A stretch of DNA of 64,000 nucleotides from positions 868,001 through 932,000 of the forward strand of contig NZ_LT821227.1 of the NCBI RefSeq assembly GCF_900169485.1, in the 5' to 3' direction. The position numbers were made by a program, and so were the translations under genes. Positions 11,677-40,347 of this stretch are shown one piece after another (positions within the stretch are counted from its first letter, which is position 1; each line of letters opens with the position of its first letter). Under the pieces are notes generated by a model, which saw nothing but the letters and a program-made list of their open reading frames with translations, ran no database searches and was not told where the DNA came from. Source of the DNA: Phoenicibacter congonensis (GTDB taxonomy: Bacteria; Actinomycetota; Coriobacteriia; Coriobacteriales; Eggerthellaceae).

Positions 11677-14600
11677 TCATTCTTCCGTTTGCCAAGCAAA
11701 AGGCCAATTCGCAGGTTGCTCTAATTCGTTAAGAGGAGGCAGAAGGCTAATGATGCTTTGTGTCTCCATAGCTACAGTCACAAGACGAGGGATTAGGCCA
11801 CTGATGTAGGCGTGATCTTCGCTATAGTCGTTGGGGTCGTTCACAATACCCGAAGCATTGTCCGTTTTCACCTGATAACGGTCTATTAACCATTCTAGCG
11901 GGCTGCGTCCATTTACCTTGTAATCATTGGCAGCTTCTGGAATGTCGGTAAAGGTCAGGTTCCCGTTATAGATGAGCGTCGTATGATCATCCACCTTCTT
12001 GCCCGTTTCTGGATCTTTGCGCTTGCCCCATTTCATTTTCTGCACTCGACCGGGATTGTCCAGATTGCCTCGGTACGTTAAAGGATATGGTTGAACGTTC
12101 TCGTAATCTAGGTGCAGCTGCGCGAGTTTTCGACCCGCTAAAGAAAATGCTCTAAAGTCCTCTGCAAGTGGAATACGAGGTAGTTCCTTCTTCAGGTTTG
12201 CTTCGAACCTGCTCCTATATTCAGGAGAATGAAGGATGCCATAGATATAGTAGAAAATATCTTCTTTGGTCAGCTCGACTCCGCCATGCTTTTTCGTACG
12301 AGCTGCCTGTTTACCATGCGCATCAAAAGCGCGCGGATAAATCTTTCTAAAAACATCTAGCGCCTCATCAGTAATAGCATCACGCCGTTCTGGTTCTCCT
12401 GACTCAAAAGAAAAAAGACCACCGAGCTCATTTCTTCTTTCATACCAATACATAGGAAAGAAAAGTCCCTTTTCAATCAAGTCGTAGCTAGGAATGCTGT
12501 CTACGATAAAGCAAGAGCTTTTCTTACTGCCGGGTCCTGATACCCCAATGCATAGGTTATAAGTTGTCCGTTCAGGAAAAATCTGCGGTATTTGATAAAC
12601 ACAGTTATTCATTTGGCGGCTTAGGTAGAGGTACTGCTCCGAAAACGGACGATAAGCTGTATCCCGAATAGCATCTCCTGAGAAAGTACCTCTCTTTTGC
12701 TGAACGAGATCTGATTTTAGTTCTCGAGTCCACTTGATCCGTGTCTCGTCTGAATCAACAAATGCATCGATGTTTTTCGGTTTGCCAGATGCTAGCCATC
12801 TATCGATCTCCTCGTTGTATGCTTCCGTCATTCTGGACATGTTGCGCTCCAACTCGGAGAAACTGTAATTCACTGCCCAAGGATCGCGATTTGTCTTAAC
12901 GCCACTTGACCAATTGATAAAGATCCCATGTGGTTCTTTGCCCTTTTCGATTCCGAGGGGTGCGAAATCGTACCAAGAATCGTCACGCTGGTTGAGCCAA
13001 TCCCCATGCCGATCCGGGACGATCCGATCCCATTCAAAAGCATCGTCTTGAGCAGCATCCTTGATTATTGCGAGCTTCTCTTCCCGTGTGAGGTAATCAC
13101 CGATGTCGTGGTAGTGAATAACACCGCGTTCCTCGGAGTTCGGATTCTTGATGAGCATAGTTATGACAATTGCAGCGCGTGATCCAGATCCGAAAATCTT
13201 ACCTCCTTCTTTCCGAGATTGCTCACCTTGCGTGTATTGGTTACCACGCAGATTGAACACATAAATCGAGCTAAACTCATCGGCGAGGGTCTTGCGGAAT
13301 CCATCCGTAGAGCCGCCGTCGAGCCAGCCACCGTTAGTGACGAAGGAGACGATGCCCCTGTTTCCGATGCGGTCAGACGCCCATCGGAATGCCCGGATGT
13401 ACGAATCGTACAGCGAGTTCTTAAGGGTTGCTGTTGAACGATCTGCATAGGTCGCCCTTATCTTCGCATCCAGCGTTGGGTACGAGAGGTTCTTTGCGTT
13501 GTCGTTTTCGTTCTTTTGACCGGCAGAATAAGGTGGATTCCCCACAATGACGTTGATGGGAGTTTCCATCTCCTTGATTATACGCTCCGTGTTGTCCACG
13601 AACATCTCAATGTCGAGCGGATCGCCTTCCTCGTACATCTGGAACGTATCCGTCAGAACTGCGCCCTCGAAAGGTACGTACTCCCCAGAGACGCGTGAAT
13701 GGTAGGCATACTCGATGTTGATGGTCGCTATGTAGTAGGCAAGCAGAAGTATCTCGTTGCACCATATCTCGCTACGGTACTTCATCGGCAACTTGTCCGT
13801 CGGCATGAGCTCTTCGTCCTGTATAAGGTTCACGATGAAGGTGCCAGTGCCCGTGAAGGGATCGAGTATGTTCACCCCCTTGTTGGCCAGGCTCAGTCCA
13901 AATTCCTTACGCAGCAGGCGATCAGTAGCATGCAGGATGTAGTTCACAACCTCATTCGGCGTGTAAACGATGCCCATCTTCTCGGATGTCGCCTTGAATG
14001 CCTGACTGAAGAATTTCTCGTAGAGTTCCTTGATGATCTTCTGCCGTCCGCCATCGGTCTTTACGCCCTCAGCTCTTAATTTGACGCTTGAGTACAATTC
14101 AGCGAGTTCCCTTTTCTCACCTTCTGTCTCTATACCATACTGCCTCAGCGTATCCACCATTTCTTCCATGGCGATAGAGACAGGATTCGAAGAAGCGAAT
14201 TCGGCTCCGGAAAAGAGCGCCTCGAATACGGGGAGCGTGATCATATGCTGGGCCAACATTTCGACGGCTTCATCCTCAGTGATACCGTTATTCAGGGAGT
14301 CTCTCAGACCTTTGAGGAATGACTCGAATTCCTTTGATGCGGGACCTTCGTTTAGGACGAGCTCGCCTACGCGCTCGATGTGTCGTTTGGCGATCTGCCC
14401 GATATCCTTTGCCCAATCTTCCCAATATACCTTTGTGCCGCACTTCTTGACGAGCACCGCATTGACCGCTTCTTGCAGCTCTTGATCCGTGAAGAATATC
14501 TTCATTTGCTCGCCGGTCTCGGCATCCTCTGCTGGCAAGTTATCACCTTTGCCGTCATGCTCAGAAGGAGGCTTGGCCTGATCCTTGCTGATGTTGATGA

Positions 14601-17371: not shown

Positions 17372-18352
17372 CTATTCCTCTATCAAGCCTTTTAGATACT
17401 CGTTGTACTCTTTCTTCAAGCTTTTCGGCCCATGTATTCTCACAGTGCCTCCGAGCCCCGCAATCCAGCCGAAGAACGGCTCGGACTTGCGGATCTTCAC
17501 GATCGCTTTAGCGGTCTCATCGTCGTGCTCGTACATCTCAGCGGCATCGCCGAAGCGATCCATGATAATCTCCACCTTGTCACCGTCGACGAGGAGCGTC
17601 GCAGTGACGGGCTCCCCTCCGAAGCGCCCGAAGCTCTCGTGGTCGTCTCCGTCGAATGTATGATGCGTGATCTCGTCGTTCCGCGTTGCCGCGTTTTGGG
17701 ACACCCGTAAGCGCTCCATGCGGTCTATCCTGAACTCGGTCATGCACTCATGATCGTCGTTCCACGCGGTCAGATAGTAATAGCCACCCCAGTAGGTGAT
17801 GCCCACGGGCGTCACCTCATGCGGCTTGCCGTCGTGGGTCGCCTTGCGCTCGCCCTTGAGGTTGAACTTGTAGTACATGAAGGAGACCTTCTTGTGCTGG
17901 CGCATGGCGTCATGCAAAACGTCGATGCATCCGAACACCCCGTCCTTCTTGGACGTGATCCTTCCCTGCACGTGTATCCGCCGATCGAGCAGCGCCCGCT
18001 CATGGTCGCTCGCGAGCAGCTTCAGGTTCGTGGTGAGCGACCTCGACTGGCTCTTCGTGAGGAACTTGCACGATTCCACAGCGTCCACCAAAAGCATCAG
18101 CTCGGACAGTGTGAAGTCCCGCCTCACGACCGCGTACTGCACCGGGTTCCTCTGGTAGGTGCGGATGTCGAGACCGAATTCCTTGAGCGTCTCAAGGTCG
18201 CGGTAGACGCCCTTGCGCTCCGCCGGTATCTCGTAGGCATGCAAGCGATCGATGAGCTGCGTCATAGACAGCCCGTGGCTCTCGTCGGTCTCCTCTTCGA
18301 GGATGCGCTTCAGGTACAGCAGCTTCAGCTTGGACTTGCTGTTGTTCGCCAT
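17372..18352 (-). CDS. WYL-domain transcriptional regulator of the defence operon
   Basis: 326-aa regulator with an N-terminal winged HTH (about 8-75, LLYLKRILEEETDESHGLSM and VYRDLETLKEFGLDI), a central WYL domain (about 140-215, KVSFMYYKFNLKGE, YYLTAWNDDHECMTEFRIDRMERL) and a WCX C-terminal domain. WYL proteins of the CapW/BrxR type repress defence systems and respond to nucleic-acid ligands. This one is the first gene of the minus-strand operon, 13 bp before the Type ISP enzyme, so it probably controls it. No clear inverted-repeat operator was found in the 50 bp upstream. Confidence 0.88.
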   Translation of the reverse strand: MANNSKSKLKLLYLKRILEEETDESHGLSMTQLIDRLHAYEIPAERKGVYRDLETLKEFGLDIRTYQRNPVQYAVVRRDFTLSELMLLVDAVESCKFLTKSQSRSLTTNLKLLASDHERALLDRRIHVQGRITSKKDGVFGCIDVLHDAMRQHKKVSFMYYKFNLKGERKATHDGKPHEVTPVGITYWGGYYYLTAWNDDHECMTEFRIDRMERLRVSQNAATRNDEITHHTFDGDDHESFGRFGGEPVTATLLVDGDKVEIIMDRFGDAAEMYEHDDETAKAIVKIRKSEPFFGWIAGLGGTVRIHGPKSLKKEYNEYLKGLIEE

Positions 18353-22134: not shown

Positions 22135-23364
22135 ATGCCCATTCTGAAACCTATAGCGGGCCATGGGTCGGTGGTCGGCATAAGGCGATATCTGGAGAAG
22201 AAGAACAGGGCGCTGGCCAAAGACCTGTTCAACCTCAGTTGGGACGAGAGGGGCAACTGCAACGATCCTCAAGAAGCCAAGAATCTTGTGAGATGGGACG
22301 AAGAGATGGATGCCATGAGGGCGAGCCTCGGCCACGATTCCCCGTGGAAGGGGAAGCGCGCCAGGACCTTCAAGCATTTCGTCATATCCCCCGACCCCGA
22401 CGATGGAATCGATCTTGACTCGCTTCGTGAGCTCGCTTGCGCATGGGCTCTCGAACATTTTCCCGACAACCAGATCGCCATCGTCTACCACGATGACAAC
22501 GAGGGTTCGATTCCTCACGCGCATGTGGTTGTGAACAGCTCGAATCTTGCCACGGGAAACAGGATGCAGACCGAGCATCCCGAGGACTTGAACCGGGCGC
22601 TTCAGGATATGGCGCGCGAGCGAGGGCTCACGGGACTCTCGAACGTCATGCCCGAGAAGTCCCAGAAGAGCACCGAGCCCAAGACGGCCCGCACGCGGCA
22701 GGGCATCTACTTCGGACGCGCCGAGAAGGAGATCATGCGCTCCGGCAACTACTCCTGGGTTGGCGACATAAGGGCGCGCGTGGCGCTCGCGAAGAACACG
22801 TCCCGAAGCGAGACCGACTTCATGGAGGCTCTCAGGCGTCTCGGCATCGACGTAGCCGACAACTCCTCGAAGGCCAGGCGCGACGACTGGATCTTCTCGC
22901 TCGCCGACGAGCCGACGAAGAAGGTGTCCGGCGAGAGGCTCGGCTTCACCTTCGGCAAGCAGATGCTAAGGAGCCGCTTTGAGAGGCAGTCGGCCTACCA
23001 CCCCGAGCGCAGAACCGAGGGCGAGATACGACGCCGCGCCGTGAGCGCAGTGGAACTCAACGACTTGCAAGACCTCTCCAGGCTCTCCGCCGTCCTTGAG
23101 ACGTGCGCGAAGTTCGACATCCGCTACCTGGAGGATTTCGATGCGAGGGCGGCCGCCCTCGCCCGAAGGGACCAGCTCGGCAGCGAGGGATTCAGGCGTC
23201 TGGCCGAGGCACGCGTATACGTCGCCGAGAACGGCCTCATGACAAGGAGGGGCGAAGGCGAGACGGCTCCTGCATCGACGAGAAGGCGCGGGAATCAGCA
23301 TCACCTTGCGCCAAGGACGCAGGAGGCCGAGCAGAGGCGCAACCGAGAGAGGAGCGACAGGTGA
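22135..23364 (+). CDS. MOBP/VirD2-like relaxase
   Basis: 409-aa conjugative relaxase. The N-terminal HUH domain has a candidate catalytic Tyr19 (GIRRYLE), KHFVISPDP around residue 80, and metal-binding histidines H119, H128 and H130 in YHDDNEGSIPHAHVVVN. The C-terminal half is basic and helical, with a charged tail. It nicks oriT, stays bound to the 5' end and is delivered through the VirD4 coupling protein encoded at 52-54 kb. It forms an operon with mobC and the following gene, which it overlaps at GTGA. Confidence 0.92.
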   Translation: MPILKPIAGHGSVVGIRRYLEKKNRALAKDLFNLSWDERGNCNDPQEAKNLVRWDEEMDAMRASLGHDSPWKGKRARTFKHFVISPDPDDGIDLDSLRELACAWALEHFPDNQIAIVYHDDNEGSIPHAHVVVNSSNLATGNRMQTEHPEDLNRALQDMARERGLTGLSNVMPEKSQKSTEPKTARTRQGIYFGRAEKEIMRSGNYSWVGDIRARVALAKNTSRSETDFMEALRRLGIDVADNSSKARRDDWIFSLADEPTKKVSGERLGFTFGKQMLRSRFERQSAYHPERRTEGEIRRRAVSAVELNDLQDLSRLSAVLETCAKFDIRYLEDFDARAAALARRDQLGSEGFRRLAEARVYVAENGLMTRRGEGETAPASTRRRGNQHHLAPRTQEAEQRRNRERSDR

Positions 23365-23992: not shown

Positions 23993-24676
23993 ATGAGGAT
24001 CAATGATTTGACCAGAACCGACAAGGGAAAGCTGGCAGCAGTCTGCGCAGTCCTAGCCATCATGCTGGCTCTGGGCGTAGCGCTCGTGTCCTGCTCGGCC
24101 GATGTAAGTGCTGAAGGAATTGGAGCGAGCCGCGCCGTCGCAGACGCAGCAGGCGGATCCGTCGAGAGCATCGATGCTCCGGAGGTTGTCGAGGCCGACG
24201 AGACGGAAGATGCCTCTGCAGCTCAGCAAACAGAGGCAACCGAGCCAGCAGATGATGAGACGTTCTCGCTTGAAGGCGATGGCTCTGTCGACACGGCTTC
24301 TGCAGCATCGAAACAAACAGCCTCCATCTCATCGCACTCTGAATCGAAGAGCGAGAGCAAACCGAATGCCTCTGCCCCGACGGAAAGCTCACCGCAGAGG
24401 AAGTGGGTCGAGGACACCGAGCAGGTCTGGGTCGTGGACAAGGCGGCATGGACCGAGAGCATTCCCGTCTACTCCACTGTCGAGGTCTCGATCTGCAACA
24501 TCTGCGGTCAGGACGTCACGGGAAACACTTCCGCGCATGCGAAGGCTCATATGAAGGCTGGAGAAGGATCAGGGCACCACAGCGAGGTTCGCCGCGAGAT
24601 CACTGGATACGACACTGTGAGCCATGCGGAAGACGGGCATTGGGAGAAGAAGGTCGTAGGAGGCCATTGGGAATGA
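23993..24676 (+). CDS. Secreted lipoprotein with C-terminal Cys/His repeat region
   Basis: 227-aa protein with an N-terminal lipoprotein signal (hydrophobic residues about 15-32, lipobox LVSC, Cys34), a long Ser/Glu/Thr-rich linker, and a conserved C-terminal domain (about 140-227) with CNICGQD, repeated His (HAKAHMKAGEG) and two GHWE repeats. Similar C-terminal domains are, from memory, frequent in lipoproteins of gut Coriobacteriia. Its two Cys and several His could bind zinc. It closes the plus-strand mobilization cluster. Surface anchoring is clear; the function is not. Confidence 0.75.
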   Translation: MRINDLTRTDKGKLAAVCAVLAIMLALGVALVSCSADVSAEGIGASRAVADAAGGSVESIDAPEVVEADETEDASAAQQTEATEPADDETFSLEGDGSVDTASAASKQTASISSHSESKSESKPNASAPTESSPQRKWVEDTEQVWVVDKAAWTESIPVYSTVEVSICNICGQDVTGNTSAHAKAHMKAGEGSGHHSEVRREITGYDTVSHAEDGHWEKKVVGGHWE

Positions 24677-24741
24677 GGGGAGGCGCTTATCCTTCTTGCA
24701 TGCCTGCCTAAGTTGTTTCGTTTCTTCAGCTCGCCCTTCCG

Positions 24742-27459
24742 TTATCGCGCTACGTGCTTGCCCCGTTTGATGGCAGAAGCTCGATGCCAACTGGCTTTCA
24801 TAGCACTTGCAGCCAGTACGATTAGGCAAAAACAAATCCCCATCAGAATAGCCAAGTTGTCTCCTGTGGCACTCAAAAATCCACCATTCGAAGGATGATT
24901 TACTTTATCGTTAGCGTTCGTGCTGCCGTTGGTGCCATCTCCAGCGTCTGTACTGTTGTTAATGCCATCTCCAGTGTTCGTGCTGTCGTCGCCTTCATTG
25001 CGTGGAGTCGTGACTCCCAAACCTGCGCTTGCCTCCGAGGGGTCACACATCTCATTTCCCGCATATCGCGAGAAGATCGTGTATGCCGTATTTGGATCGA
25101 GCGACTCGAACACAGGGCTCATCTGCCAGGTCGCACCGGAAGGCAGGGTGGCAATCGTTCCATCGACGCTTTTCACCAGACAATACTCCACATTGGCAAG
25201 TCCAGCGGGTTGCTCGTTAAGCGTGATGCTCTCTGCAGTGACGGTCTTGACAGTGGGAGTCACTGGAGCTGAGGGCTTCGTGCCCTTCGCCACTTTGATA
25301 TTTGCCGTTGCTGTAGTGCTGAGAAGTTCGCGGTGCTCATCGACAGCCATTCCGTCGAATCGGGCTGTGATGGTGTTGTCACCGAGCTTCCATTCGCCTT
25401 TTCTCCACGCCTCCGTTGTAAGCTCAAGCTCCACCGTGTCACCTGACACGCTCGACGTTCCGAGCAGCTGACCGCTCTCTGGCTCGCCAAGCCAGAATTC
25501 GACAGTCGGCTCTGAGCTCTTCGTTTCGGCTTTGAACATGGAGACGAAAGGCGATGTGAGCTTTGATGCCAGCTTTGTGTTGGCTCCGTATTTGGCGGTA
25601 TCTATGGAAACGCCATCGCGCTCAGCGCCGAGAGACATCGTGGGCGCCATCGCAAGCACTCCATTCCCAGAGTAGTATCCCTGTCCGGATATGGATCCGT
25701 ACACTTCGATCCTGCCGTTGCAGACGATGTCGCCATTGTTAAGAAGTTCACCGTAGCAGATGAGGGTGCCATTGCAAATCACCTTGCCGCCGGTGTCAAC
25801 AGTCAGCGTCTTGTCCGCAGCTACCGTAAGCATCTTGCCGACAGGGATGGTCAGTGTCTTGCCATCGGGAACGGCGATATTGCCCGATGCATCTGCCATG
25901 GACTTCTCCACGGCATAGGGGTATTCGTCTTTGGTCGCTGCGTCAGTGCTCTCGACCACGGTGTAGCCTGAGGCAGGCGCGATGCCGTAGGCCGCTCCTC
26001 CCTCAACGCCATTGCCGAGCGTCGCGCCATTCGAGGTGAAGAAGCCGCCCTGGATCGCAACGTGGGCAGCATCGCCAGAGTATCCGGCCCCGTTTCCGAG
26101 ATAGGTAGACCCATCGCGGGAAGTAAGGCTCAAGCAAGGGCCAAAGACCCGGGATCCGATCCTGATACGAGCAGATTTGCAACCATAAGCAGCGCCAATG
26201 GCAGCCGAGCCTTCGCCAGATGAGACGTTTACAGTTCCTTCGCCGATGGCTATCTCGCTGTAGGGTGACGGGTCAGGGGCACCTTTTCCACCGCCGATAC
26301 CGGCAGCCTCTCTAGACATTGCCGTTACGGTGCCACCGTTGACCAAGATGTCGCCGCTGCACCCACCGCTGCCGCCGCCGATACCCGCTCCATTGTGGGA
26401 CATGCTTTTGACCACTGCATTTTCGCTTATGTAGATATTGCCTCCACTCTGACCGTTAGCTCCTCCGATGCCAGCACCGTTAGTGCTGGCGGCGCGGAGA
26501 CTTCCTGATCCATGAATGACGACAGATTGCATGCCATTTTCGAGACCTGCGCGATCGTCGCCCGATGAAAGCGAGTTGGTCGAGCCATCGGCCAGATTGA
26601 GCAAAAGGCCTCCTGAAGCTATACGGAGAGCAGCTTTATCAGTACGGGCGTCCGAAAGACCGTCAAGTTCGATGGCTGTGTTATTAAAGGTGATGTCTGC
26701 ATAGTTGTCTTCATTGTTGTTGCCTACATCGACTATGATCCCGGCGTTGGTGACATCTCCGTTCGTCGAGATGGTCAAAGGCGTGGTCATCTTGACCCTG
26801 AGTTCGCCCCAGTCGGCGCCCGCGTCATAGACCCAGTCGTAATCAGTGCCGAGTGTGCCACCCTCTATTACGAAGGGACATGCATGGCGCAGGACCAGAT
26901 GTAACGTACTGTCCTTTTGAATACTGTAATCCTGCAAGGTATTGTCGTCTTCGAGCTGCTTTCCTGCAAAAATCAATCTCTGCTGATCGATTGGTATTCC
27001 CTCTTTATCCCTGATCATTGCCTTTACGTCTTCTATTCGATCCGTTGGCTCAACCTCAAGAGTTATATGTTTTCCCGTTAGGGTCTTTACGAATATCTGC
27101 ATCGCTGACATCGGTTCGCCTTGTGGTCCAGCGAGCGCTTCACGAACTGCGTTGTACCGATCCATATGCAGTCCGTCGCGCTTATCTTCTGGGATAGCAC
27201 TAATGGCATCGGAGATCGCTTGCATGGCTTCATCCATTGCATGCGCATCTTCAGCAGATAGCGTTTCGGGGTCGGGCAACCCATCTATCAGCGCATTGAC
27301 CTTCACGACAGCATCGTTGGTTTCCAAATCCAAGGCTTCGGCTTGTATAGATATTGCGTCCGTTCCGTCCAATTGCGGCTCGATCGCAAAAGCCATCATG
27401 GGCATCGTGCCGAAGATCAGAGTTAGGCAAAGTAGTTTGTTGAGCATGCGTTTAGCCAT
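24742..27459 (-). CDS. Secreted wall-anchored protein with near-eukaryotic ubiquitin domain
   Basis: 905 aa. Signal peptide 1-25 ([17 protein letters not shown]). A helical region precedes a ubiquitin domain at residues 120-191 (DNA 26887-27102) that begins [11 protein letters not shown] and ends STLHLVLR. By my count it matches human ubiquitin at 60 of 72 positions. L8, I44 and V70 and Lys 6, 11, 27, 33, 48 and 63 are kept; Lys29 is Met. The final LRGG is absent, so it should not be conjugable. Then come Gly-rich beta-helix-like repeats (about 280-500, repeated NGAGIGG), Ig-like segments, and a C-terminal sorting signal variant (LSATGD, membrane helix, basic tail). It heads nothing downstream but lies in a cluster of three surface genes. 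GC is lower than in the conjugation genes. Confidence 0.9.
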
Positions 27460-27479
27460 GATGATGCGTCCTTTTCAGT

Positions 27480-29865
27480 TCACTTTCGAGCATGTTTGCC
27501 GCGATAGGGGCTCAGCTTGCTGCTCCAGGAAAGCACCAACACTGCAGCGGAGATGATCGATATCGCCGTAAGGAGCAGTATGCTGCGCTGCATGCCGTCG
27601 CCTGTGGACGGGAGGCCGCCCCTCGAATCCTGTTCGTTCTTTCCAGCCGAAGAGCCGGCGTTATCGGCTACATTCGATCCATTGTCAGTGCCAGCCTGAC
27701 CGCTCTCGTCCGATACGGTCGGACCATCAGGGTCGCCAGGGTTCTCGGAGCGCGCGGTCAGCGTTCGGTTGGACGCTTCCCAGTCGTAGGCACGGGAAAG
27801 CTGATTGAAGTCTGCTCGGCTGCAGTAGGTTGTCACCTTGTCGCCCTCTGATACAAGAAAACAGTTCTTGCTGTTCGTGCAACCGCTCGGGAAGTGCCAC
27901 CCATCCGGGATGGACGTTATGGCAGGACAGTCCGCAAAAGTCCCCTGCATGTTCTTCACGCCGTCCGGGATTGCTGGCAAAGCTTTGAGCAACGTGCAGC
28001 CCGAAGAAGCGTAGGCTGCATTCACTACGCTATCTGGAATTTTCGGTGCCTCAACAAGAGAGATGCAGCCATAGAAAGTGCCGTCCATATCTTCCACGCT
28101 GCTTGCCTCTGACATATCGGGAGGAGCAACAAGGGCAGTGCAGCCCTGGAAAGTGCTGTTCAGATTTGTTGCTTTTCCTGGAATTTTTGGCGCCGCTGCA
28201 AGAGATGCGCAGTTGAAAAACGTGCCGAACAGGTTAGTTGCGCTGTCTGGCAGCGCAGGAACGCTCCTCAAAGAGATGCACTCATAGAAGGTGCCGGTCA
28301 TGTTCGTAACACTGCTTGGAATCGATGGCACACTTTCAAGCAGTGCGCAGCCATGGAAAGCTCGCGTCATTTCTTTCACGTTGATTGCATTCGACAAGTC
28401 GGGTGCGACCTTCAACGAAGTGCACCCCATGAAAGCACGGGTCATATCTTGGACGTTGCTCGCATTCGACATATCAGGCGCGGTCTTTAGCAAGGTGCAA
28501 TTTTCGAAGGTGCCAGCCATATCCGTAACACTAGTTGGTATGACAGGCGCTCTCTCAAGCGACGTGCAGTCTTGGAAAGTTCGCCTCATGTTCGTCACAT
28601 TGCGCGTATTCGACAGGTCTGGTGCGGAAACAAGGGACGTGCAACCGTCGAACGCCATGCTCAAGTCGGTCACAGCATCTTGGATCGCTGGTGCGCTTGT
28701 AAGCGAGGTGCACCCGTAGAAGGCACCGCTCATGTCCGTAACGCTGATCGCATTCGTCATGTCGGGCGCCGCCGCAAGAGCAGTGCAACCGGAGAAACAT
28801 CGAGACAGATTCGTCACGCTGTTCGGAATCGCAGGCGCAGTCGTAAGAGAAGCGCAGCCCGTGAAGGTGCCACTCATATCTTTCACGCTATTCGGGATTT
28901 CGGGTGCAGCCGTAAGAGAGGCGCACCGAGCAAAGGTGCCGCTCATGTCGGTCACGCCACTAGGGATTGTTGGAGCCGAGACAAGACCGGTGCAACCATA
29001 GAACCAATCTCGCATGGATGAGGGTGTTACGCCGCTTTCGATCGTAACTGATCTGATCTTCTCTGCCTGAGAACTCCAAGGAGCATCAGGAGTCGAAAAC
29101 GCCACGTCGCCACTTCCGCTTATATGCAGAGATCCGTCGCTGTATAGCGTAGCGATCACATTAGCAGTATTAAGGGCGCCGATCTCCCATTTTCCGACGA
29201 TGCTGACCGAAGGCCCAGGCGTGGGTGTCGGCGAAGGGTCGGGGTCGGGCTCGGGGGTCGTCTCGGTCGCCATCGTCGCGTAGGTCATCCTTTGGCCATC
29301 TTCCGTCTTTTCCAGCCATACCTTGCAATTCTCAAAGCTGTCGATTCCCATACCGCTGGCGGAAACGGAGCCCATGTCGCTGACTGCCTGCGCCCATGCA
29401 CCGTCGCTGTTCTGCGCAACCAGGTAGGCGCCTGATGGAACATTCGAATAATCAACCTTTGAATAGTCTGAAGCTATCGATGCGGACCCAAGATCGACCC
29501 CTTTATACCTCAAAGTAAAAGCACCGTCACCCGTCACGTTTTCAATCGCCAAAGCACCGTTGGACAATGCCGACGGCGCAGCAGAGGCAAAAGCGACAGA
29601 TGACAGATCCAGCTCGAAGGCGGGCTTCATCGCGATATTATAAACAACGTTCTCGGAAATCACGTATCTGCCTGAGGCCGCTGCCAGAGCATAGATGTTA
29701 TAATTTGCAAAAGGTGTACGAAGCCAGAAATAGCCGCTGTTTCCCCAATACGTATTATCTATGCGAAGACCATTGTTCAATGAGTCCGCACTGTTCGCGC
29801 CGACGGTGATATATCCGTCGGCACCATGATCATAATCCCCATAAGCCGGATACAGTTTTCCTATC
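27480..29865 (-). pseudogene. 3' fragment of LRR/BspA-like wall-anchored protein
   Basis: About 795 codons of a surface protein. It starts inside a domain with YPAYGDYDHG and YFWLRTPF, then a Pro-rich linker (PDPDPSPTPTPGP). About 16 tandem repeats of roughly 23-25 residues follow (NSVTDMSGTFTGCASLTTAP type, BspA/DUF285-like LRRs), and then LPSTG at residue 764 of the open frame with membrane helix and basic tail. There is no signal peptide or start: the 5' part lies on the other side of the IS110-family element (31484-32026). The repeats would form a ligand-binding solenoid on the cell wall in the intact protein. Called a pseudogene because the two halves are about 1.6 kb apart. Confidence 0.85.
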
Positions 29866-29890
29866 AACCTATAATTTGATTGCGTTTTAG

Positions 29891-29949
29891 ACCTCTTCCG
29901 CAACGGCTAAGTATCTGGTGCGAAAACGGCTCCGCGTTGCGGAAGAGGT
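29891..29949. repeat. Inverted repeat spanning the left IS boundary
   Basis: ACCTCTTCCGCAACG (29891-29905) and its exact complement at 29935-29949. The left arm contains the 12-bp sequence TTCCGCAACGGC that also flanks the IS on the right (31412-31423). The right arm lies inside the IS, in the non-coding tail after the transposase. Confidence 0.7.
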
Positions 29950-31423
29950 AGGCCTTTTTGGGCGCAGAAGGCCGGCCCCTGCTATAATGCGGGAGCGGCA
30001 GGCGGAGCGGGGCGCTCTGCTTGGCTACGCCGCCGCAGTCGGCGGCTCGTACAAGGTGCCGTTCTTCAGCATCGCGTAGACGACCTCTACGCGTCTGCGC
30101 GCCAGGGCAAGGCATGCTTGGCTGCGGGTCTTGCCCTCGGCGATTTTCTTCATGCAGTAGGCTTCCTCCATGGATCCTTCTTGGAACGCTGCGAGGGTTG
30201 CGGACTGGACGAGGGCGTTCTTCAGGCGGCGGTTGCCGCCCTTGCGCTTTCTCTTCCCCTTGATAGTGCACGAGTCCTTCTTCACGGGCGCGACGCCTGC
30301 GTACGAGGCCAGATGGTGGGCGTTCGCGAAGCGGCCGATGTCGCCGATTTCGGCGGCGATCGTCGCGCCGTACACGCGGCCGATGCCGGGGATGCTCTCC
30401 AAGAGCTCAACCTCGGCCACCTGCTTGGAGAGGCGCTCCAGCTCGGCGCTGAGCTCCTTCTCCTCGGCTTCGAGCTCGATGACGCGTCTCGCGATTTTCT
30501 TGGCCTGCCCCTCGATGACGGCGGTGGCGGGCAGCGTCACGGTCTGCTCGGACAGCGCCTCGAACACCGTCTCGGCGAGCTTCGGGCCGCGCGTTTTGCG
30601 GTACTTGAGGCCGCCGGCCCACTTGGCCACGCGCGCCTTGCCGGCGCGCCTCAGGCCCTGGGGTCCGCCGTAGCGCTCCACCAGGCGTATCTCGAGGTCG
30701 TTGTGCAGTTTTGCTTTGCTGAGCACCTTGTCGAGCGCGGGGCAGGCCCGGTGCAGCAGGTCGTGCAGGCGGTTGTAGCAACGGGTCCGCTCGCGCACGA
30801 CGTCGTCGCGGCACGAGGAGATGACCTTGATCTGCGCCATGATCTCGGAGCGCTCGCCCACAGGTTCGATGAGGCGCGGCGCGCTGCGGGAGACGTCGGC
30901 AATGATGAACGCGTCTCGCGCGTCGGTCTTGTCCTCCCCGTAGGCTTCCGCCACCTGCTTGAACTTGCGAGGCGGGAGGTGCGCGACCTCGAGTCCCATG
31001 TCCTTGGCCACGGCCACGGCCAGGCTCCCGAACGCCCCGCATTGATCGACGGTCACGAGCATGCGCTCCCCGAGCGAGCTCGCCTTCGCGAGCGCCTCGC
31101 GGATCATCGCCTCGTCCTGCGCGACTGGGCCTCTCGCGAGGGGGTCGTCGCCGTCGCGGTCGAGCGCGACCATGTAGTGCCCCGTCTTGCCGACGTCGAT
31201 GCCGCAGAACACGTCGTACGCCGCGACTTCAGATCTCTTCACGCTTCTCCGATCTCTCGATGGGGCTGGCGCAGTCGTTGGGCGCACCGCCTTCGGCAGA
31301 ATTCTACGAGCGTAGGGCAGCAACCTTATGAGCGATAAGCGGGCGCCACGGAATCCGGTGGCATGATAGGAAAAGTCCTTGGAAGACAATTGCCGAGAGC
31401 CGGTGTCCAGATTCCGCAACGGC
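29896..31423 (-). mobile_element. IS110-family insertion sequence
   Basis: About 1.52-kb element with one transposase gene and no terminal inverted repeats. Direct copies of TTCCGCAACGGC at 29896-29907 and 31412-31423 probably mark the borders, with one copy belonging to the target. Non-coding ends are 128 bp (after the transposase) and about 170 bp (before it). IS110 elements encode a guide (bridge/seek) RNA in such an end. The element splits the LRR surface-protein gene. About 90 bp of extra sequence (29866-29895 and 31424-31483) lies between the IS and the gene halves. Confidence 0.75.
30025..31242 (-). CDS. IS110-family transposase (DEDD recombinase)
   Basis: 405-aa RNA-guided recombinase when started at the GTG at 31242, with GGAGAAGC upstream. 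Longer upstream frame is not family-like. The N-terminal RuvC-like DEDD domain shows GIDVGKTGHYMVALD, VTVDQCG and DKTDARDAFIIAD. A coiled-coil precedes the C-terminal Transposase_20 domain with SIPGIGRVYGATIAAEIGD, SYAGVAPVKKDS (candidate catalytic Ser) and KGGNRRLKNAL. The domains look intact, so the element may be active. It moves its own IS using a guide RNA from an IS end. Confidence 0.92.
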   Translation of the reverse strand: MKRSEVAAYDVFCGIDVGKTGHYMVALDRDGDDPLARGPVAQDEAMIREALAKASSLGERMLVTVDQCGAFGSLAVAVAKDMGLEVAHLPPRKFKQVAEAYGEDKTDARDAFIIADVSRSAPRLIEPVGERSEIMAQIKVISSCRDDVVRERTRCYNRLHDLLHRACPALDKVLSKAKLHNDLEIRLVERYGGPQGLRRAGKARVAKWAGGLKYRKTRGPKLAETVFEALSEQTVTLPATAVIEGQAKKIARRVIELEAEEKELSAELERLSKQVAEVELLESIPGIGRVYGATIAAEIGDIGRFANAHHLASYAGVAPVKKDSCTIKGKRKRKGGNRRLKNALVQSATLAAFQEGSMEEAYCMKKIAEGKTRSQACLALARRRVEVVYAMLKNGTLYEPPTAAA

Positions 31424-31483
31424 CAGCAGGAAGGCCATGCATCGGCTCTTCCTGAAAGTCATTATAGAGAAATCAACTTGTAG

Positions 31484-32026
31484 AATTGTGGAATAAACAC
31501 TGTTGTTCTTAGTGTCGTTCGTATATATCGTCGAGGTTTTCATCAAGGCTTGCTCTGCACCTGTAAAAAACGAACTTTCCGCATCTCGCAAAGCTTCTCT
31601 TAGCTTGCTTGCGCCGTAATGATTCGGAAACACCTCTGTTGGAGTTTCGCCTTGATACACACAACCCCACTCAGCGTTATAGGGCATAGCGTTCATGCTT
31701 TGCTGAAACACTTGTGTTTGCCCAAGCTGACTCGCCGCGAACAAGGTCAGGCTTCCAATGCTTTGGCTGCCTGCGATCCACCATGCTTGTGCATCACTAG
31801 GACCGTTTTGCCCAAAGTACACCTTTGCTGCCTTTGCTGTTCCATCAGCGTCGTTCGTGTTGAACTGCATCAAATCGCCCTTATCAGCGAACTGCGCAGT
31901 GTCGGGCGATTCCGCCGCATGAGCAGTCGTCGGCCCTATTGGTGTCAAGGTGACAATCAGCGTCATCGCGATCAGCAGCGATAAGAGCGTCTGTCCTACT
32001 GACTGGTTGCCCATGATCTTCTTCAA
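31484..32026 (-). pseudogene. 5' fragment of the IS-split LRR surface protein
   Basis: First 180 codons of a secreted protein with an AxA-type signal peptide (SLLIAMTLIVTLTPIGPTTAHA, about 14-38). The following mature part (WWIAGSQSIGSLTLFAASQLG, YNAEWGCVYQGE) matches the start of the domain continued as YPAYGDYDHG in the fragment at 27480-29865. Its frame runs on into IS-adjacent DNA and ends in unrelated residues. A truncated secreted peptide could still be made. The next upstream gene, the papain-fold protease, ends 15 bp away, suggesting one surface-protein operon. Confidence 0.8.
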
Positions 32027-32041
32027 GCTCGATTTCCTTTC

Positions 32042-34960
32042 CTATCGACTCATTCGACGCCTTGACGCAAGCGCCAGCGCGGCCAGAGCAGCAAGCAACG
32101 CCAATGCAGCGATTGCAAGCGCCATGCCGTCCCCTGTTGCTGCCAAACCCGAACCGCCAGCAGGAGAACCAAAATACGGATCGGTCGAAACCTGATCTTT
32201 CGATCCTCCCGCATTAGCTAGGTCATTCGGCTCCTCGACAAGCTGGCTCGCAGGGATGGTCAAAGCTTTCACGCACACGTTCGTAACGTAACGATCGCGT
32301 CCTGAGATCCTTTCATTAGATCCCTCCGAGTCCCCCTCCAGTCCATCTCCAGAGGCACCTATGGTCGGAGAATCCTCGGGAGCAGTTGTAACATTGCTCG
32401 CGATATCCTGACCATAGCCCTTGGGATCGATCCAATTCTTCCCATCCGCTGAAACGAAGCTTGCCTCTTCATTGCCGTTCGCATCCTTGCCCATATGCAC
32501 CGGCACCGCATCAGGCATCTCAGGGTCGGGCGTATAAGCTTCGACTGCGATTGGGAAATCATAGGTGGGCGTTTCCATACGAACGACCACTGAGAAGACA
32601 TCACCCTTGGATAGCCTCACTGGTGCGCTGAGTGTGGCGGTGTGATACCCCGGACGCGCCACCACGCCTTCTTGCGTAGACGCCAGCTCCCCCGACGTTG
32701 GATTCTGCTCATCAGTAAGTCTCTTATATACTTCGATGCGATAGTTCGTGTTGATTCCCGTAGCGCACATCGTCACGCGATCAAGTGCTTCATCGTCGCG
32801 TTCGCTCGTGAAGACGTTTGCCGCATAGCCGACATTCGAGTCTCCCGTTCGAAGAGAATTGCACCAACCTAGGGTATCATTTTGATAGATTGCCTCATTT
32901 TCGCGGCCGAGGTCTCCTTTGAATACGCCGATGAAACCAAGCGAAGCGTCCTCATAAGAAATCCAGAAGTACCCTTCGTCTCCTTGTTCAGTGCCCCAGG
33001 AATTCTTGATGAGCCATGCGCCGTCGGAGTGCGGACGCATCGTCTCATTGAAATTGAAGCGCGAATAGGTGTCATCCCAACCAACCAGTGCAGTCGCATG
33101 GTCGGCAACTGCCTGACCCGCCGTAGGACTCAGATAGTATGCCGAGGTCTCGAAGTTGAAATTCCCCATATCCTGCCGACTTGCGAACTCGATGACAACG
33201 ACCCCGTCATTCTTAACAGCATCCTTGATCGCCTGCCTGGAAACTCCGTCTTCGGTCTGCTCCCAATAGGGGTTGTCGTAACCTGCATCGAAGAGGATGG
33301 AATCAGTGAAGCGCACATCCGAAACGTAACGGTGAGATTCATCCATGGCCACAGGGCCGTCATTCGTTCCCTCCTTGACCAGAGCAGCCCCTTTCCCTGC
33401 GGCCAAGCTTGCTGAAAGACGTTTCGAATCGACACCGCCACCATACGGATCAAACTCATCAAAATACTCCGTGTGATTGAACTCGCGCTCCTCCTTTCCC
33501 GTTTGCTCGAAATAGAGCATCTGGTAGGGAGATAGCTCAAGGGACTGACCCGTTTTCCTTAGCACAGAAGATTCAATGGAAGCCATTGTCGCAAACGAGA
33601 AGCAGGTATCCGTTTGCCCTTGGTTGCGAACAGGAGTCAGCAACCCTTCGTCGCGCAAGTTGTATGCCGACTCGTCACGCGATACATCGCTCGGAACATC
33701 AGCAGAGGCAACGCCGGTTGACCTGAATACGCGGCCATCTGGCTCGGCGAACGATGCGGCAAGAGCGTATAAGCGCCCATCGTAGGCTGCTACCGCAGGC
33801 TCGAACACCTTATCGTCCGACAATCTAGACCAGTACGGCTCGAACGTACCCGACTCTTCTGAGAAGATGTAGGTGTCTGCCTGCCCATCAGCAGAGAGCG
33901 GGCCGACCATGGCTATACTGTCGACGTAACCTTCCACCGCATCTGACCATGCCCTTATCGGAGCAAAGGCACGCCTAGCATTCGTGTTGGGGGCAAATTC
34001 AGGGAAGGCGTTTTCTAGCAAGGTACCAGTGTTTCCGCGCACGACCTCCATCGTTCCATTGGATTCGTCGTATGCGTATAAACTATCACCGCTTGCTACA
34101 ACCTGCGGATTGACGCGCTCGACAGCGAGGGTCGCGATTTGCCCCGTCGAGCCATTGCTCAGATCATAGGAAGAGACGCGGCTAGCGTCGCCCTCGTCTC
34201 CACCCACAAGTGCCAAGGTTCCCGCATGGTTTATGATGGTTGATCCCTTTTGGACGCCCGCGCTCGAAATGCTGCTCCATTGTCTAACCGACGGGTCGAA
34301 GGCGTACATCTTCACCTGAGCCTTACTGGAATCACTCCAAATTCGCGCAACTCCGCCGTCCAGTTGCTCCATGGACGTCCCCTTCACGATCAGAAGGCCG
34401 TCCCAGAGAGCCGCCGAGGCATCGGCCAGAGGTTCTGGAAGAGCAGCGCTCTTCTCCCAACTGTCAGCTTGCGTGTCGTAGCGCCACATAGCCCGAACGA
34501 AAGGTGAATCCTCAACTGGCTCGGTATTGGGCAGAGCGTAGAGGTATCCTTGCAAAGGCTGTAGGATTCCACCCGCTTCGCAGTCTGCAAAATCGTCATA
34601 TTCGTAAGCGTCTCCCTCTGCCTGAGGAAGCGCATGCATTTTTTCATACACGGAATAACTGGGGCTCACGAAAAAAGTGCGGCGCGCCGCCTTACCAGCC
34701 GAGGTAGAAACTGTTGCTTCGACCGTGCCCGAAAGCCATTCTTCGTCAGAAATCCTGAAAGCGATCTCGTTATCGGTCCATGAGCTTATTGCTGTGGAAT
34801 ATGCCGTGTGGTCATCACCCAGGCCTGCTTGGATCATAGCCACCTGCCCTTGCGAAGACCCGAATCGAGCACCCGTGATGGTTACAGTCTTGCCGCTCTC
34901 GTCGACTTCGAGCGAATCGAGCCTGGGGCCAATGCTCATGTACGGTAAGGAAGCAAGCAA
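32042..34960 (-). CDS. Papain-fold (C1) surface protease, 5' end probably replaced
   Basis: Up to 972 aa from a TTG; an ATG at 34939 is the first methionine of recognisable protein. An IPT/TIG-like Ig domain (about 11-98) precedes kelch-like beta-propeller repeats (about 100-410), then a C1A peptidase (about 430-690) with catalytic Cys453 in NQGQTDTCFSFA, His621 in DHATALVGWDD and Asn653 in LIKNSWGTEQGDEGY. A C-terminal stalk ends in the sorting signal LAATGDG, a membrane helix and RRRMSR. No signal peptide is in frame; a hydrophobic leader-like stretch occurs in another frame just upstream, where the tet(W) segment begins. The catalytic triad is complete, but secretion is doubtful. Confidence 0.8.
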   Translation of the reverse strand: MLASLPYMSIGPRLDSLEVDESGKTVTITGARFGSSQGQVAMIQAGLGDDHTAYSTAISSWTDNEIAFRISDEEWLSGTVEATVSTSAGKAARRTFFVSPSYSVYEKMHALPQAEGDAYEYDDFADCEAGGILQPLQGYLYALPNTEPVEDSPFVRAMWRYDTQADSWEKSAALPEPLADASAALWDGLLIVKGTSMEQLDGGVARIWSDSSKAQVKMYAFDPSVRQWSSISSAGVQKGSTIINHAGTLALVGGDEGDASRVSSYDLSNGSTGQIATLAVERVNPQVVASGDSLYAYDESNGTMEVVRGNTGTLLENAFPEFAPNTNARRAFAPIRAWSDAVEGYVDSIAMVGPLSADGQADTYIFSEESGTFEPYWSRLSDDKVFEPAVAAYDGRLYALAASFAEPDGRVFRSTGVASADVPSDVSRDESAYNLRDEGLLTPVRNQGQTDTCFSFATMASIESSVLRKTGQSLELSPYQMLYFEQTGKEEREFNHTEYFDEFDPYGGGVDSKRLSASLAAGKGAALVKEGTNDGPVAMDESHRYVSDVRFTDSILFDAGYDNPYWEQTEDGVSRQAIKDAVKNDGVVVIEFASRQDMGNFNFETSAYYLSPTAGQAVADHATALVGWDDTYSRFNFNETMRPHSDGAWLIKNSWGTEQGDEGYFWISYEDASLGFIGVFKGDLGRENEAIYQNDTLGWCNSLRTGDSNVGYAANVFTSERDDEALDRVTMCATGINTNYRIEVYKRLTDEQNPTSGELASTQEGVVARPGYHTATLSAPVRLSKGDVFSVVVRMETPTYDFPIAVEAYTPDPEMPDAVPVHMGKDANGNEEASFVSADGKNWIDPKGYGQDIASNVTTAPEDSPTIGASGDGLEGDSEGSNERISGRDRYVTNVCVKALTIPASQLVEEPNDLANAGGSKDQVSTDPYFGSPAGGSGLAATGDGMALAIAALALLAALAALALASRRRMSR

Positions 34961-35021
34961 CCGAAAACAAGAGATAGACCGCCAGCACTACACTATTCCG
35001 AACCAAAGACCAAAAGATAAG

Positions 35022-35061
35022 CATTGTGGGAAAATCTAAACTTTTGGATTTTCCTACAATG
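35022..35061. repeat. 40-bp near-perfect palindrome at the left of the tet(W) segment
   Basis: Arms of 19 bp (CATTGTGGGAAAATCTAAA and near-complement, with two G-T wobbles) around a 2-base centre. It lies where GC-rich protease DNA changes to AT-rich tet(W) DNA. It could be a terminator protecting the two sides, a recombination site, or an end of the mobile segment. Confidence 0.65.
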
Positions 35062-35266
35062 CCAACTACGGCGGAATCCCTCCCACTCCTTATATCTTTC
35101 TGTATACATTGAATTTGTATTTAGTAAAATGCAGACAACACCACGGATCGGCTTTTGGTTGGACAATTCCAACCAAACACCACAGCAGACAGCAGAAAAC
35201 ATTCTGAACGCTAGGAAGCCGGTATGATTGTTACATATAAGGGGAAGAAAAATTTCTTTTAGGTAC

Positions 35267-35295
35267 TTGCTTTCCTAAAACTGATGTGATACAAT
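35267..35295 (+). promoter_or_regulatory. tet(W) promoter
   Basis: TTGCTT (35267-35272), 17-bp spacer, TACAAT (35290-35295), about 28 bp before the leader peptide start. The arrangement corresponds to the known tet(M)/tet(W) promoter region. Confidence 0.65.
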
Positions 35296-35323
35296 GATTT
35301 AATCCAGAAAAGGAGTAAAAAAT

Positions 35324-35347
35324 ATGCGGCAAGGTATTCTTAAATAA
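35324..35347 (+). CDS. Short leader peptide upstream of tet(W)
   Basis: Seven-residue peptide MRQGILK preceded by AAAAGGAGTAAAAAAT. The same start region is present before tet(M) in Tn916. Its coding bases (GTATTCTTAAAT, 35334-35345) can pair with ATTTAAGAATAC at 35419-35430, so ribosome movement through it can reshape the leader RNA. Confidence 0.65.
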   Translation: MRQGILK

Positions 35348-35515
35348 AACTATAATCAAATAGTGGGAACAAAGGATTATGATAGCTCCTTTTGTAGTGG
35401 CTTAGTTTTTTGTACCCAATTTAAGAATACTTTTGCCTTATCAATTTTGACATATCCCCAAAAACAGCAATCACAAACAGGTGTATGCTGTATATGTGTA
35501 TGTCCGCAACTTATA

Positions 35516-35554
35516 ATCCCCAGTGGTAAAAGTATTTTACTGCTGGGGATTTTT
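35516..35554 (+). terminator. Attenuator hairpin in the tet(W) leader
   Basis: ATCCCCAGTGGTAAAA pairs with TTTTACTGCTGGGGAT and is followed by TTTTT, a Rho-independent terminator 35 bp before tet(W). It is the counterpart of the tet(M) attenuator: tetracycline-slowed ribosomes are expected to prevent its formation and allow readthrough. Confidence 0.8.
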
Positions 35555-35588
35555 ATGCCCTTTGGGGCTGTAAAGGGAGGACAATCAC

Positions 35589-37508
35589 ATGAAAATAATC
35601 AATATTGGAATTCTTGCCCATGTAGACGCTGGAAAGACGACCTTGACGGAGAGCCTGCTATATGCCAGCGGAGCCATTTCAGAACCGGGGAGCGTCGAAA
35701 AAGGGACAACGAGGACGGACACCATGTTTTTGGAGCGGCAGCGTGGGATTACCATTCAAGCGGCAGTCACTTCCTTCCAGTGGCACAGATGTAAAGTTAA
35801 CATTGTGGATACGCCCGGCCACATGGATTTTTTGGCGGAGGTGTACCGCTCTTTGGCTGTTTTAGATGGGGCCATCTTGGTGATCTCCGCTAAAGATGGC
35901 GTGCAGGCCCAGACCCGTATTCTGTTCCATGCCCTGCGGAAAATGAACATTCCCACCGTTATCTTTATCAACAAGATCGACCAGGCTGGCGTTGATTTGC
36001 AGAGCGTGGTTCAGTCTGTTCGGGATAAGCTCTCCGCCGATATTATCATCAAGCAGACGGTGTCGCTGTCCCCGGAAATAGTCCTGGAGGAAAATACCGA
36101 CATAGAAGCATGGGATGCGGTCATCGAAAATAACGATGAATTATTGGAAAAGTATATCGCAGGAGAACCAATCAGCCGGGAAAAACTTGCGCGGGAGGAA
36201 CAGCAGCGGGTTCAAGACGCCTCCCTGTTCCCAGTCTATCATGGCAGCGCCAAAAATGGCCTTGGCATTCAACCGTTGATGGATGCGGTGACAGGGCTGT
36301 TCCAACCGATTGGGGAACAGGGGGGCGCCGCCCTATGCGGCAGCGTTTTCAAGGTTGAGTACACCGATTGCGGCCAGCGGCGTGTCTATCTACGGTTATA
36401 CAGCGGAACGCTGCGCCTGCGGGATACGGTGGCCCTGGCCGGGAGAGAAAAGCTGAAAATCACAGAGATGCGTATTCCATCCAAAGGGGAAATTGTTCGG
36501 ACAGACACCGCTTATCAGGGTGAAATTGTTATCCTTCCCAGCGACAGCGTGAGGTTAAACGATGTATTAGGGGACCAAACCCGGCTCCCTCGTAAAAGGT
36601 GGCGCGAGGACCCCCTCCCCATGCTGCGGACGACGATTGCGCCGAAAACGGCAGCGCAAAGAGAACGGCTGCTGGACGCTCTTACGCAACTTGCGGATAC
36701 TGACCCGCTTTTGCGTTGCGAAGTGGATTCCATCACCCATGAGATCATTCTTTCTTTTTTGGGCCGGGTGCAGTTGGAGGTTGTTTCCGCTTTGCTGTCG
36801 GAAAAATACAAGCTTGAAACAGTGGTAAAGGAACCCTCCGTCATTTATATGGAGCGGCCGCTCAAAGCAGCCAGCCACACCATCCATATCGAGGTGCCGC
36901 CCAACCCGTTTTGGGCATCCATAGGACTGTCTGTTACACCACTCTCGCTTGGCTCCGGTGTACAATACGAGAGCCGGGTTTCGCTGGGATACTTGAACCA
37001 GAGTTTTCAAAACGCTGTCAGGGATGGTATCCGTTACGGGCTGGAGCAGGGCTTGTTCGGCTGGAACGTAACGGACTGTAAGATTTGCTTTGAATACGGG
37101 CTTTATTACAGTCCGGTCAGCACGCCGGCGGACTTCCGCTCATTGGCCCCGATTGTATTGGAACAGGCATTGAAGGAATCGGGGACGCAGCTGCTGGAAC
37201 CTTATCTCTCCTTCATCCTCTATGCGCCCCAGGAATACCTTTCCAGGGCTTATCATGATGCACCGAAATACTGTGCCACCATCGAAACGGCCCAGGTAAA
37301 AAAGGATGAAGTTGTCTTTACTGGCGAGATTCCCGCCCGCTGTATACAGGCATACCGTACTGATCTGGCCTTTTACACCAGCGGGCGGAGCGTATGCCTT
37401 ACAGAGCTGAAAGGATATCAGGCCGCTGTCGGTCAGCCGGTCATCCAGCCCCGCCGTCCAAACAGCCGCCTGGACAAGGTGCGCCATATGTTTCAGAAGG
37501 TAATGTAA
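35589..37508 (+). CDS. tet(W): Tetracycline resistance ribosomal protection protein Tet(W)
   Basis: 639-aa EF-G-like GTPase that binds ribosomes and releases tetracycline. Sequence and length match Tet(W) as I know it, ending in ...[11 protein letters not shown]1 motif AHVDAGKTT (10-18), DTPGH (G3) and NKID (G4) are present. The EF-G domain II and the domain IV-V region follow. GGGAGGACAATCAC precedes the ATG. The gene and leader are AT-richer than the ICE and read on the plus strand against minus-strand neighbours, so they came as a separate segment. Expression is likely inducible through the attenuator. Confidence 0.97.
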
Positions 37509-37558
37509 AGATACATAATCGTCAAGACGGCAACAATCAGAAGTTATGGAGGGTAACA

Positions 37559-37879
37559 ATGGAATATAGTAAGGAAGATTTAATGGAAGCAAAAAAGCAA
37601 ATTTGGGGAGTGGGAGAGAACATGGGAACAGAGGAAAGTAAAAAAATCTGGGAGGAGAACGCACAATTTTGGGATAATGCAATGGGTGACGAATCTAATG
37701 AATTTCACAGAGAGGTAGTGCGTCCCAAAGTAACGGAACTTCTATCTCCTAATCCTGCGGATTACATTTTGGATATTGCGTGTGGCAATGGAAATTATTC
37801 TTCGTATCTTGCACAAAGAGGCGCTTCGGTTGTCGCTTTTGATTACAGCAAAAAAATGATAGAATTGGCTCTCAGAGCC
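37559..37879 (+). pseudogene. Truncated SAM-dependent methyltransferase downstream of tet(W)
   Basis: About 107 codons from the first ATG (RBS GGAGGG). The frame has an N-terminal MEYSKEDLMEAKKQI segment, typical of a different small protein. A second start at 37622 (MGTEESKKIWEENAQFWD) leads into a class I methyltransferase with motif I LDIACGNGNY and acidic loop VVAFDYSKKMIELA. After about 37879 the sequence is antisense response-regulator and kinase DNA, so the last two thirds of the methyltransferase are missing. The first segment may be the relic of a second fusion. No activity expected. Confidence 0.75.
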
Positions 37880-40346: not shown

Positions 40347-40347
40347 A

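Follow-up and report, generated by a model that had tools for sequence, protein, structure and literature searches.

Ubiquitin is a textbook signature of eukaryotes. The closest described bacterial counterpart of the protein analysed here is BfUbb of Bacteroides fragilis, a free, secreted 76-aa protein of a Gram-negative species, which is 63% identical to human ubiquitin and inhibits sensitive B. fragilis strains without carrying a C-terminal LRGG (PMC5705921, PMC3352274). Jiang et al., as cited in PMC12853789, reportedly name BfUbb as a driver of intraspecies competition. The papers found in our search treat this exported ubiquitin as a singular case.

The window, i.e. the whole 64-kb stretch of DNA that was analysed, encodes a protein that shares with BfUbb a near-eukaryotic ubiquitin, a bacterial signal peptide, the lack of a terminal GlyGly, the patchy occurrence of an accessory gene and the absence of any known conjugation (PMC3352274, PMC5705921). 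It differs from BfUbb in its length of 905 aa, its predicted wall anchor, its identity to human ubiquitin of 83% over 72 residues, its clade and its location on an ICE. A signal peptide leading a GlyGly-less ubiquitin is found here, but not a free mature protein that starts at Met1. Antibacterial action is a demonstrated property of BfUbb only and not of the window protein.

The ubiquitin domain and its carrier protein

The gene and the parts of its product are arranged as follows, from the N-terminus onwards:

24742-27459, minus strand: gene of the ubiquitin-headed surface protein, 905 aa (open reading frame; SD-like AAAAGGA upstream of the ATG; PF00240)
27385-27459, minus strand: predicted signal peptide, residues 1-25 (hydrophobic stretch, AFA cleavage-like end; aligns with the signal peptide of the Frisingicoccus protein L003)
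27133-27327, minus strand: N-terminal four-helix bundle, residues ~45-109 (AlphaFold2 pLDDT of 86-95 for the most part; helices spanning residues 20-84 of the model)
26887-27102, minus strand: ubiquitin domain, residues 120-191 (60/72 identical to human ubiquitin; fold model and Foldseek; clade support 99/99)
25648-26877, minus strand: beta-rich, beta-helix-like stalk, residues ~195-604 (weak Beta_helix_3 match; strand-rich model)
24742-24876, minus strand: sorting signal LSATG, hydrophobic stretch and basic tail, residues 862-905 (from the sequence)

Aligned without gaps, residues 120-191 and human ubiquitin are identical at 60 of 72 positions, which reproduces the 12 differences counted in the original prediction. 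Both sequence and beta-grasp fold place the domain in PF00240. The Pfam match reached E=2.4e-27 and 94.9 bits against a cut-off of 25.4, covering positions 1-70 of 72. Structure modelling had been proposed as a check: AlphaFold2 with a 38-row alignment returned a confident ubiquitin fold (mean pLDDT 89.5), for which the best PDB matches in Foldseek were ubiquitins with an rmsd of ~0.5 Å over 72 columns. The hydrophobic patch (L8, I44, H68, V70) is retained. So are six of the seven lysines (K6, K11, K27, K33, K48, K63), while K29 is replaced by Met; the alignment thus agrees with the three patch residues and six lysines named earlier. The positions that correspond to ubiquitin 73-76 read H-A-C-P, and the chain continues for another 700 residues. 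Since the LRGG of a functional modifier ubiquitin is missing, the domain cannot be conjugated, as had been anticipated.

Export and wall anchoring of the protein are predicted. Its C-terminus reads LSATGD followed by a hydrophobic stretch and a basic tail, i.e. the layout of an LPxTG-type surface protein with a variant motif, and the genome encodes two sortases, one of them on the ICE. The signal peptide and sorting signal proposed before therefore hold as sequence predictions. From the outside inwards, helical bundle and ubiquitin would lie at the outer end of the protein, followed by the stalk and the wall anchor. The AlphaFold2 model of the stalk is only partly confident (~residues 515-603), and the four-helix bundle matches no Pfam family. 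The bundle intervenes between signal peptide and ubiquitin, whereas in most relatives the mature protein starts with the ubiquitin. As the domain lacks the LRGG tail and is predicted to be exported, it would act as a folded extracellular binding head rather than as a modifier.

The domain provides the only PF00240 match in the genome (1.448 Mb, single contig, 99.7% complete). A profile search of the genome for E2 enzymes (PF00179) gave no match, the control set being equally silent. Contamination with eukaryotic DNA was ruled out by the single-contig genome and by a bacterial homologue of the N-terminal 119 residues: this part, comprising signal peptide and helical bundle, is 52% identical to protein L003 of Frisingicoccus caecimuris. 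A bacterial intracellular ubiquitin-like defence system was likewise rejected, since the protein is predicted to be exported and PADLOC gave no match for it; nor did PADLOC match its two operon partners.

Operon and cargo slot of the ICE

The gene is located on a mobile element with the following features:

6601-7854, plus strand: left-end tyrosine integrase of the element (PF00589, PF14659)
22135-23364, plus strand: MobA/VirD2-type relaxase (PF03432)
24675-40530: variable cargo slot of the ICE, containing the operon (flanks match genomes G005 and G058, the slot does not)
27480-29903, minus strand: C-terminal part of an LRR/DUF285 (BspA-like) surface protein gene, product ending LPSTGD (PF03382, PF13306)
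30025-31419, minus strand: IS110-family transposase ORF, splitting the LRR-protein gene (PF01548, PF02371)
31304-32026, minus strand: 5' part of the split LRR gene, with signal peptide, running on into the IS (translation)
32042-34960, minus strand: operon gene 1, papain-type (C1) peptidase with a lectin-like domain, product ending LAATGD (PF00112, PF18560)
40348-41046, minus strand: sortase encoded by the ICE, lying at the slot's right edge (PF04203, E=4e-10)
52338-54164, minus strand: T4SS coupling protein (PF02534; backbone 95-96% identical in G005, G009 and G058)

Integrase, relaxase and T4SS surround the operon and confirm that it resides on an ICE, as had been suggested. The backbone is ~90-96% identical in two other genera, where it carries other cargo. 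Matching transfer DNA was present in 61 of 137 genomes of the same family, with 95-96% identity in G005, G009 and G058. Upon alignment to G005 and G058 the backbone matched at 88-90% from 17.4 to 24.67 kb and at 87-96% from 40.5 kb on, while the genes in between differed. The variable cargo slot is therefore exactly where the ubiquitin operon sits. To the left of ~6 kb the G+C content amounts to 43-46%, and to the right mostly to 50-65%. No tRNA att site was found within the 64-kb window, and a search from the left end to 20 kb beyond the window's right edge returned no direct-repeat att of at least 15 bp. Neither search located the exact ICE ends.

Within the slot, three genes form a tight operon with gaps of 15 and 20 bp, in which the ubiquitin gene comes last, 20 bp after the end of the LRR/BspA-like gene. 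The sorting-type endings are parallel across the operon (LAATGD, LPSTGD, LSATGD). The LRR/BspA-like gene is disrupted between 29903 and 32026 by the IS110-family insertion. In the called ORF of the C1 peptidase a sorting signal is present, but the N-terminus lacks a signal peptide; the start or upstream frame may be damaged. The element also encodes a thioester/SpaA adhesin. The BspA-like LRR and TED/SpaA/TQ adhesins resemble the ubiquitin-headed protein as sortase-type surface proteins of the same element, but have no ubiquitin domain.

Further genes of the element were noted in passing. A ribosomal-protection gene (EF-G-like, tet type; 34933-37511) has a 98% identical counterpart in G005, placed elsewhere and oppositely oriented; it therefore moved separately from the ubiquitin operon. 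At 9786-11699 and 17372-18352 a GmrSD-type restriction protein (strong PADLOC Orf5/HEC-06 matches) and a WYL regulator are found.

A bacterial family of exported near-ubiquitins

Relatives of the domain were searched by exact peptides in 84,980 species genomes, among which 287 genome stretches encode near-ubiquitins. The detailed set of 86 loci consisted of the window, the best 80 of these 287 and 5 loci on viral contigs; among them, L035 comes from a Coriobacteriaceae MAG of the order, most likely Coriobacteriales, to which the window's genome also belongs, and has the same coordinates as G273/L087. In 76 of 82 evaluable loci the ubiquitin begins exactly at the end of the signal peptide. This layout occurs in at least 11 phyla among the kept loci (best 80 of 287), including cultured strains such as Frisingicoccus caecimuris, Leeia oryzae, Dyella, Pseudovibrio, Paenibacillus faecis and Rhodoferax lacus, while some of the MAG contigs may be misbinned. 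Seven loci without signal peptide (L052, L057, L062, L065, L075, L082, L086) could be of eukaryotic origin or stem from wrong binning; they stand outside the claim on architecture. One of them, L065, has a tandem poly-ubiquitin at 2847-3815; its short contig was assigned to Nitrospinota and probably represents eukaryotic contamination of the MAG. Many members of the family were sampled in animal guts or in waters where protists graze.

The regions that follow the ubiquitin fall into 32 homology groups without detectable homology between groups. The anchors comprise autotransporter barrels, SLH, GLUG, InlB-type repeats and IPTL-CTERM, and LPxTG in Coriobacteriia. The head is thus the constant and the anchor the variable part of the family. 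Minimal forms consist of signal peptide and ubiquitin alone (L029, L043) or of these plus a sorting tail (L083, L036, L046, L059, L027). L015 was considered as a free secreted ubiquitin of the window's clade and rejected, since its barrel continues in another frame; the ubiquitin-autotransporter gene at 9938-11200 of this locus has a frameshift between ubiquitin and barrel.

Two kinds of relatives come close to the window protein. The protein L003 of F. caecimuris DSM 28559 has a homologous signal peptide, helical bundle and ubiquitin as well as an LPxTG-like end (PQTGD), but its stalk is non-homologous (BLASTP with the ubiquitin masked) and its phylum is Bacillota. The autotransporter-type proteins of gut Alphaproteobacteria (L002, L007, L010, L014) carry a ubiquitin of the same clade, also at the outer end, but directly after the signal peptide and with an outer-membrane barrel (PF03797 in L010) in place of a wall anchor.

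The domain is patchily distributed. It was found in 1 of 138 genomes of the window's family; a Pfam survey of its class gave 12 of 398 genomes at E<=0.001, 11 of them above the cut-off. The same cut-off was exceeded in 3 of 344 genomes from the order that contains L063 (Parabacteroides), in 6 of 397 from the family of Frisingicoccus and in 2 of 43 from the alphaproteobacterial order. Phages gave no match. Plasmids gave two, one of which, annotated as 'ubiquitin family protein' and 78% identical, lies on a plasmid of Ruminococcus albus. The few matches on viral contigs were kept out of the main claims; some of them lack a signal peptide and may belong to eukaryotic viruses. NCBIfam holds no model for exported near-ubiquitins, single proteins being auto-annotated as 'ubiquitin family protein'. 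Our literature search, of incomplete coverage such that a prior description is possible, found no account of the family beyond BfUbb.

The original prediction had explained the close identity by a transfer from a eukaryote. A direct transfer is not supported by the phylogeny. In a 97-row tree the domain fell into a 24-row, all-bacterial clade (support 99/99) with members from Alphaproteobacteria, Clostridia, Bacilli, Bacteroidia and Coriobacteriia, and the four eukaryotic ubiquitins stayed outside. A grouping of the window with eukaryotes was rejected (p-AU 0.0018), where the eukaryotic side of tree and test consisted of these four ubiquitins plus NEDD8 as outgroup. Against this sample a direct eukaryotic donor is rejected. 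The nearest sequences come from an alphaproteobacterium, a clostridium and Frisingicoccus, with 67, 65 and 64 of 72 positions identical, respectively, and a DNA identity of only 73-79%. Within the clade synonymous sites are saturated, with pN of 0.06-0.18 and pN/pS of ~0.08-0.19. The low DNA identity, the saturation and the low pN/pS show that the domain has long been held by selection in bacteria and has crossed phyla. It was passed between bacteria and not freshly acquired from a eukaryote; the ultimate source of the near-ubiquitin family is presumably eukaryotic. Since Frisingicoccus shares signal peptide and helical bundle, a longer module has crossed between Bacillota and Actinomycetota. 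The exported lineage would travel as a head module that is joined to the recipient's own type of anchor and is carried here as ICE cargo.

Conserved surfaces and candidate roles

The clade is distinguished by derived residues: H12, T20, Q57 and S60 occur in 22 of 22 members, D64 in 21, N54 in 20, and R22 and D25 in 18. H12, R22, D25, N54 and S60 are found in 0 of 64 other rows. Two loci found by Pfam keep part of this set: L094 has H12, T20, R22, D25, Q57, S60 and D64 though otherwise diverged (it was found by Pfam only), and L095 has H12, T20, R22 and D25, with QDY and KDSTLH visible in its sequence. Among exposed sites the Ile44 face was the most variable across the clade (V70 in 10/22 rows, R42 in 8/22, Q49 in 10/22), and the F4/TEK (F4/T12) and D58 faces were the most conserved. 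Since the exact-peptide search could bias such a test, we used as control the 18 rows found via MQIFVKTL alone, restricted to residues 9-72. The pattern persisted: random exposed sets were at least as conserved with a frequency of 0.996 for the Ile44 face, 0.027 for F4/TEK and 0.020 for D58, values that are exploratory since the faces were picked after inspection of the data, exposure was assigned from general knowledge of the ubiquitin structure and the rows are phylogenetically related. Some of the conservation could also be due to constraints of the fold.

We lean slightly towards the following reading. The protein would be a non-conjugating, sortase-anchored exported ubiquitin head, an ICE-borne member of an old bacterial lineage, that binds a protein partner through the F4/T12 and D58 surfaces instead of the Ile44 patch. 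Domain, clade, purifying selection, family architecture and cargo slot are observed; partner binding and the surface used are what we infer. That the head is constant and the anchor variable, and that some proteins hold little beyond signal peptide, ubiquitin and sorting tail, suggests that the ubiquitin is the working part outside the cell. The drift of the Ile44 surface and the fixed F4/T12 and D58 surfaces argue that the partner is probably no standard eukaryotic ubiquitin receptor. The likeliest partners would be proteins of other bacteria, by analogy with the secreted B. fragilis ubiquitin. The head may serve as weapon, adhesin or immune decoy. More tentatively, many phyla may use ubiquitin as an exported recognition head, a module that spreads between bacteria and is joined to any anchor; in the animal-gut lineage it would have switched from the Ile44 face to another one and so recognise a partner outside eukaryotic ubiquitin biology.

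Other explanations bear on what the head does. One is that it imitates host ubiquitin and engages ubiquitin-binding proteins of eukaryotes, their E3 ligases or deubiquitinases, or else a receptor for extracellular ubiquitin. Host receptors, E3 ligases and deubiquitinases were the targets named in the original prediction; a wider version extends the idea to grazing protists. The intact patch of this copy and the 60/72 identity speak for it, as do the many members from animal guts or protist-grazed waters. Yet the Ile44 face, which most known ubiquitin-binding domains use, drifts across the clade, and the domain is predicted to lie outside the cell, where cytosolic receptors are absent. We therefore consider binding to host receptors via the patch weakened and host mimicry quite unlikely, even though BfUbb inhibits ubiquitination in vitro (PMC3352274). 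Antagonism of the BfUbb type, with the head as a contact-dependent or shed toxin against related bacteria, draws on BfUbb, the one exported bacterial ubiquitin that has been tested, which proved to be a potent toxin within its species and has a mature form starting at Met1 (PMC5705921). Other genera have free secreted forms (L029, L043), and the patchy presence (1/138 in the family, 12/398 in the class) would fit an accessory weapon. The window's head, however, is fused inside a wall-anchored protein, and BfUbb does not look clade-like, since N54 is absent from its published peptides EDGRT and KEGFPPDKIRL (PMC11773492). No immunity gene was seen, but BfUbb producers need none either (PMC5705921). 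Taken together such a toxin is unlikely.

A very stable, fast-folding ubiquitin could also be an inert spacer, i.e. a cap for building or exporting surface proteins, as interchangeable anchors and the position at the mature N-terminus would allow. Such a cap should show surface drift; instead whole surfaces are invariant, lineage-specific derived residues are kept and synonymous sites are saturated. Proteins that are barely more than ubiquitin and anchor furthermore leave nothing to cap, making this explanation improbable. Expression in the present strain is a separate matter. An IS110-family insertion interrupts the operon gene that immediately precedes the ubiquitin gene, which puts expression of the latter in some doubt: the insertion may be polar and lower it, and a weak test found no promoter-like site just upstream. 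The 905-codon frame is nevertheless intact with an SD-like sequence, and IS elements are able to supply promoters, such that we regard a silent or decaying gene as rather doubtful. It would not exclude a surface head that binds a protein partner.

Near-ubiquitins are part of exported proteins in no fewer than 11 phyla. One lineage crosses phyla in animal guts and is located here on a conjugative element; this lineage reveals which ubiquitin surfaces are retained once conjugation ceases to matter. If displayed as predicted, the head could play a role in gut bacterial competition, and ubiquitin-based assays or antibodies could be misled in microbiome samples. Antibodies that cross-react with host ubiquitin would be possible as well, for which BfUbb provides a precedent (reviewed in PMC11773492).

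Diverged members in Lachnospiraceae and Bacteroidota form a continuum away from ubiquitin. Strongly diverged exported ubiquitin-like domains from these groups (L105-L107, L111-L113), some right after the signal peptide, retain parts of the motif LEDGRTLxDYNxQ. Across 78 loci no conserved partner or immunity gene was found near the ubiquitin gene, and only common regulator and transporter families recurred. Four beta-proteobacterial loci (L058, L076, L078, L080) share a gene near the ubiquitin-headed one that by eye resembles a SET-domain lysine methyltransferase; in L058 it lies directly downstream of the ubiquitin gene.
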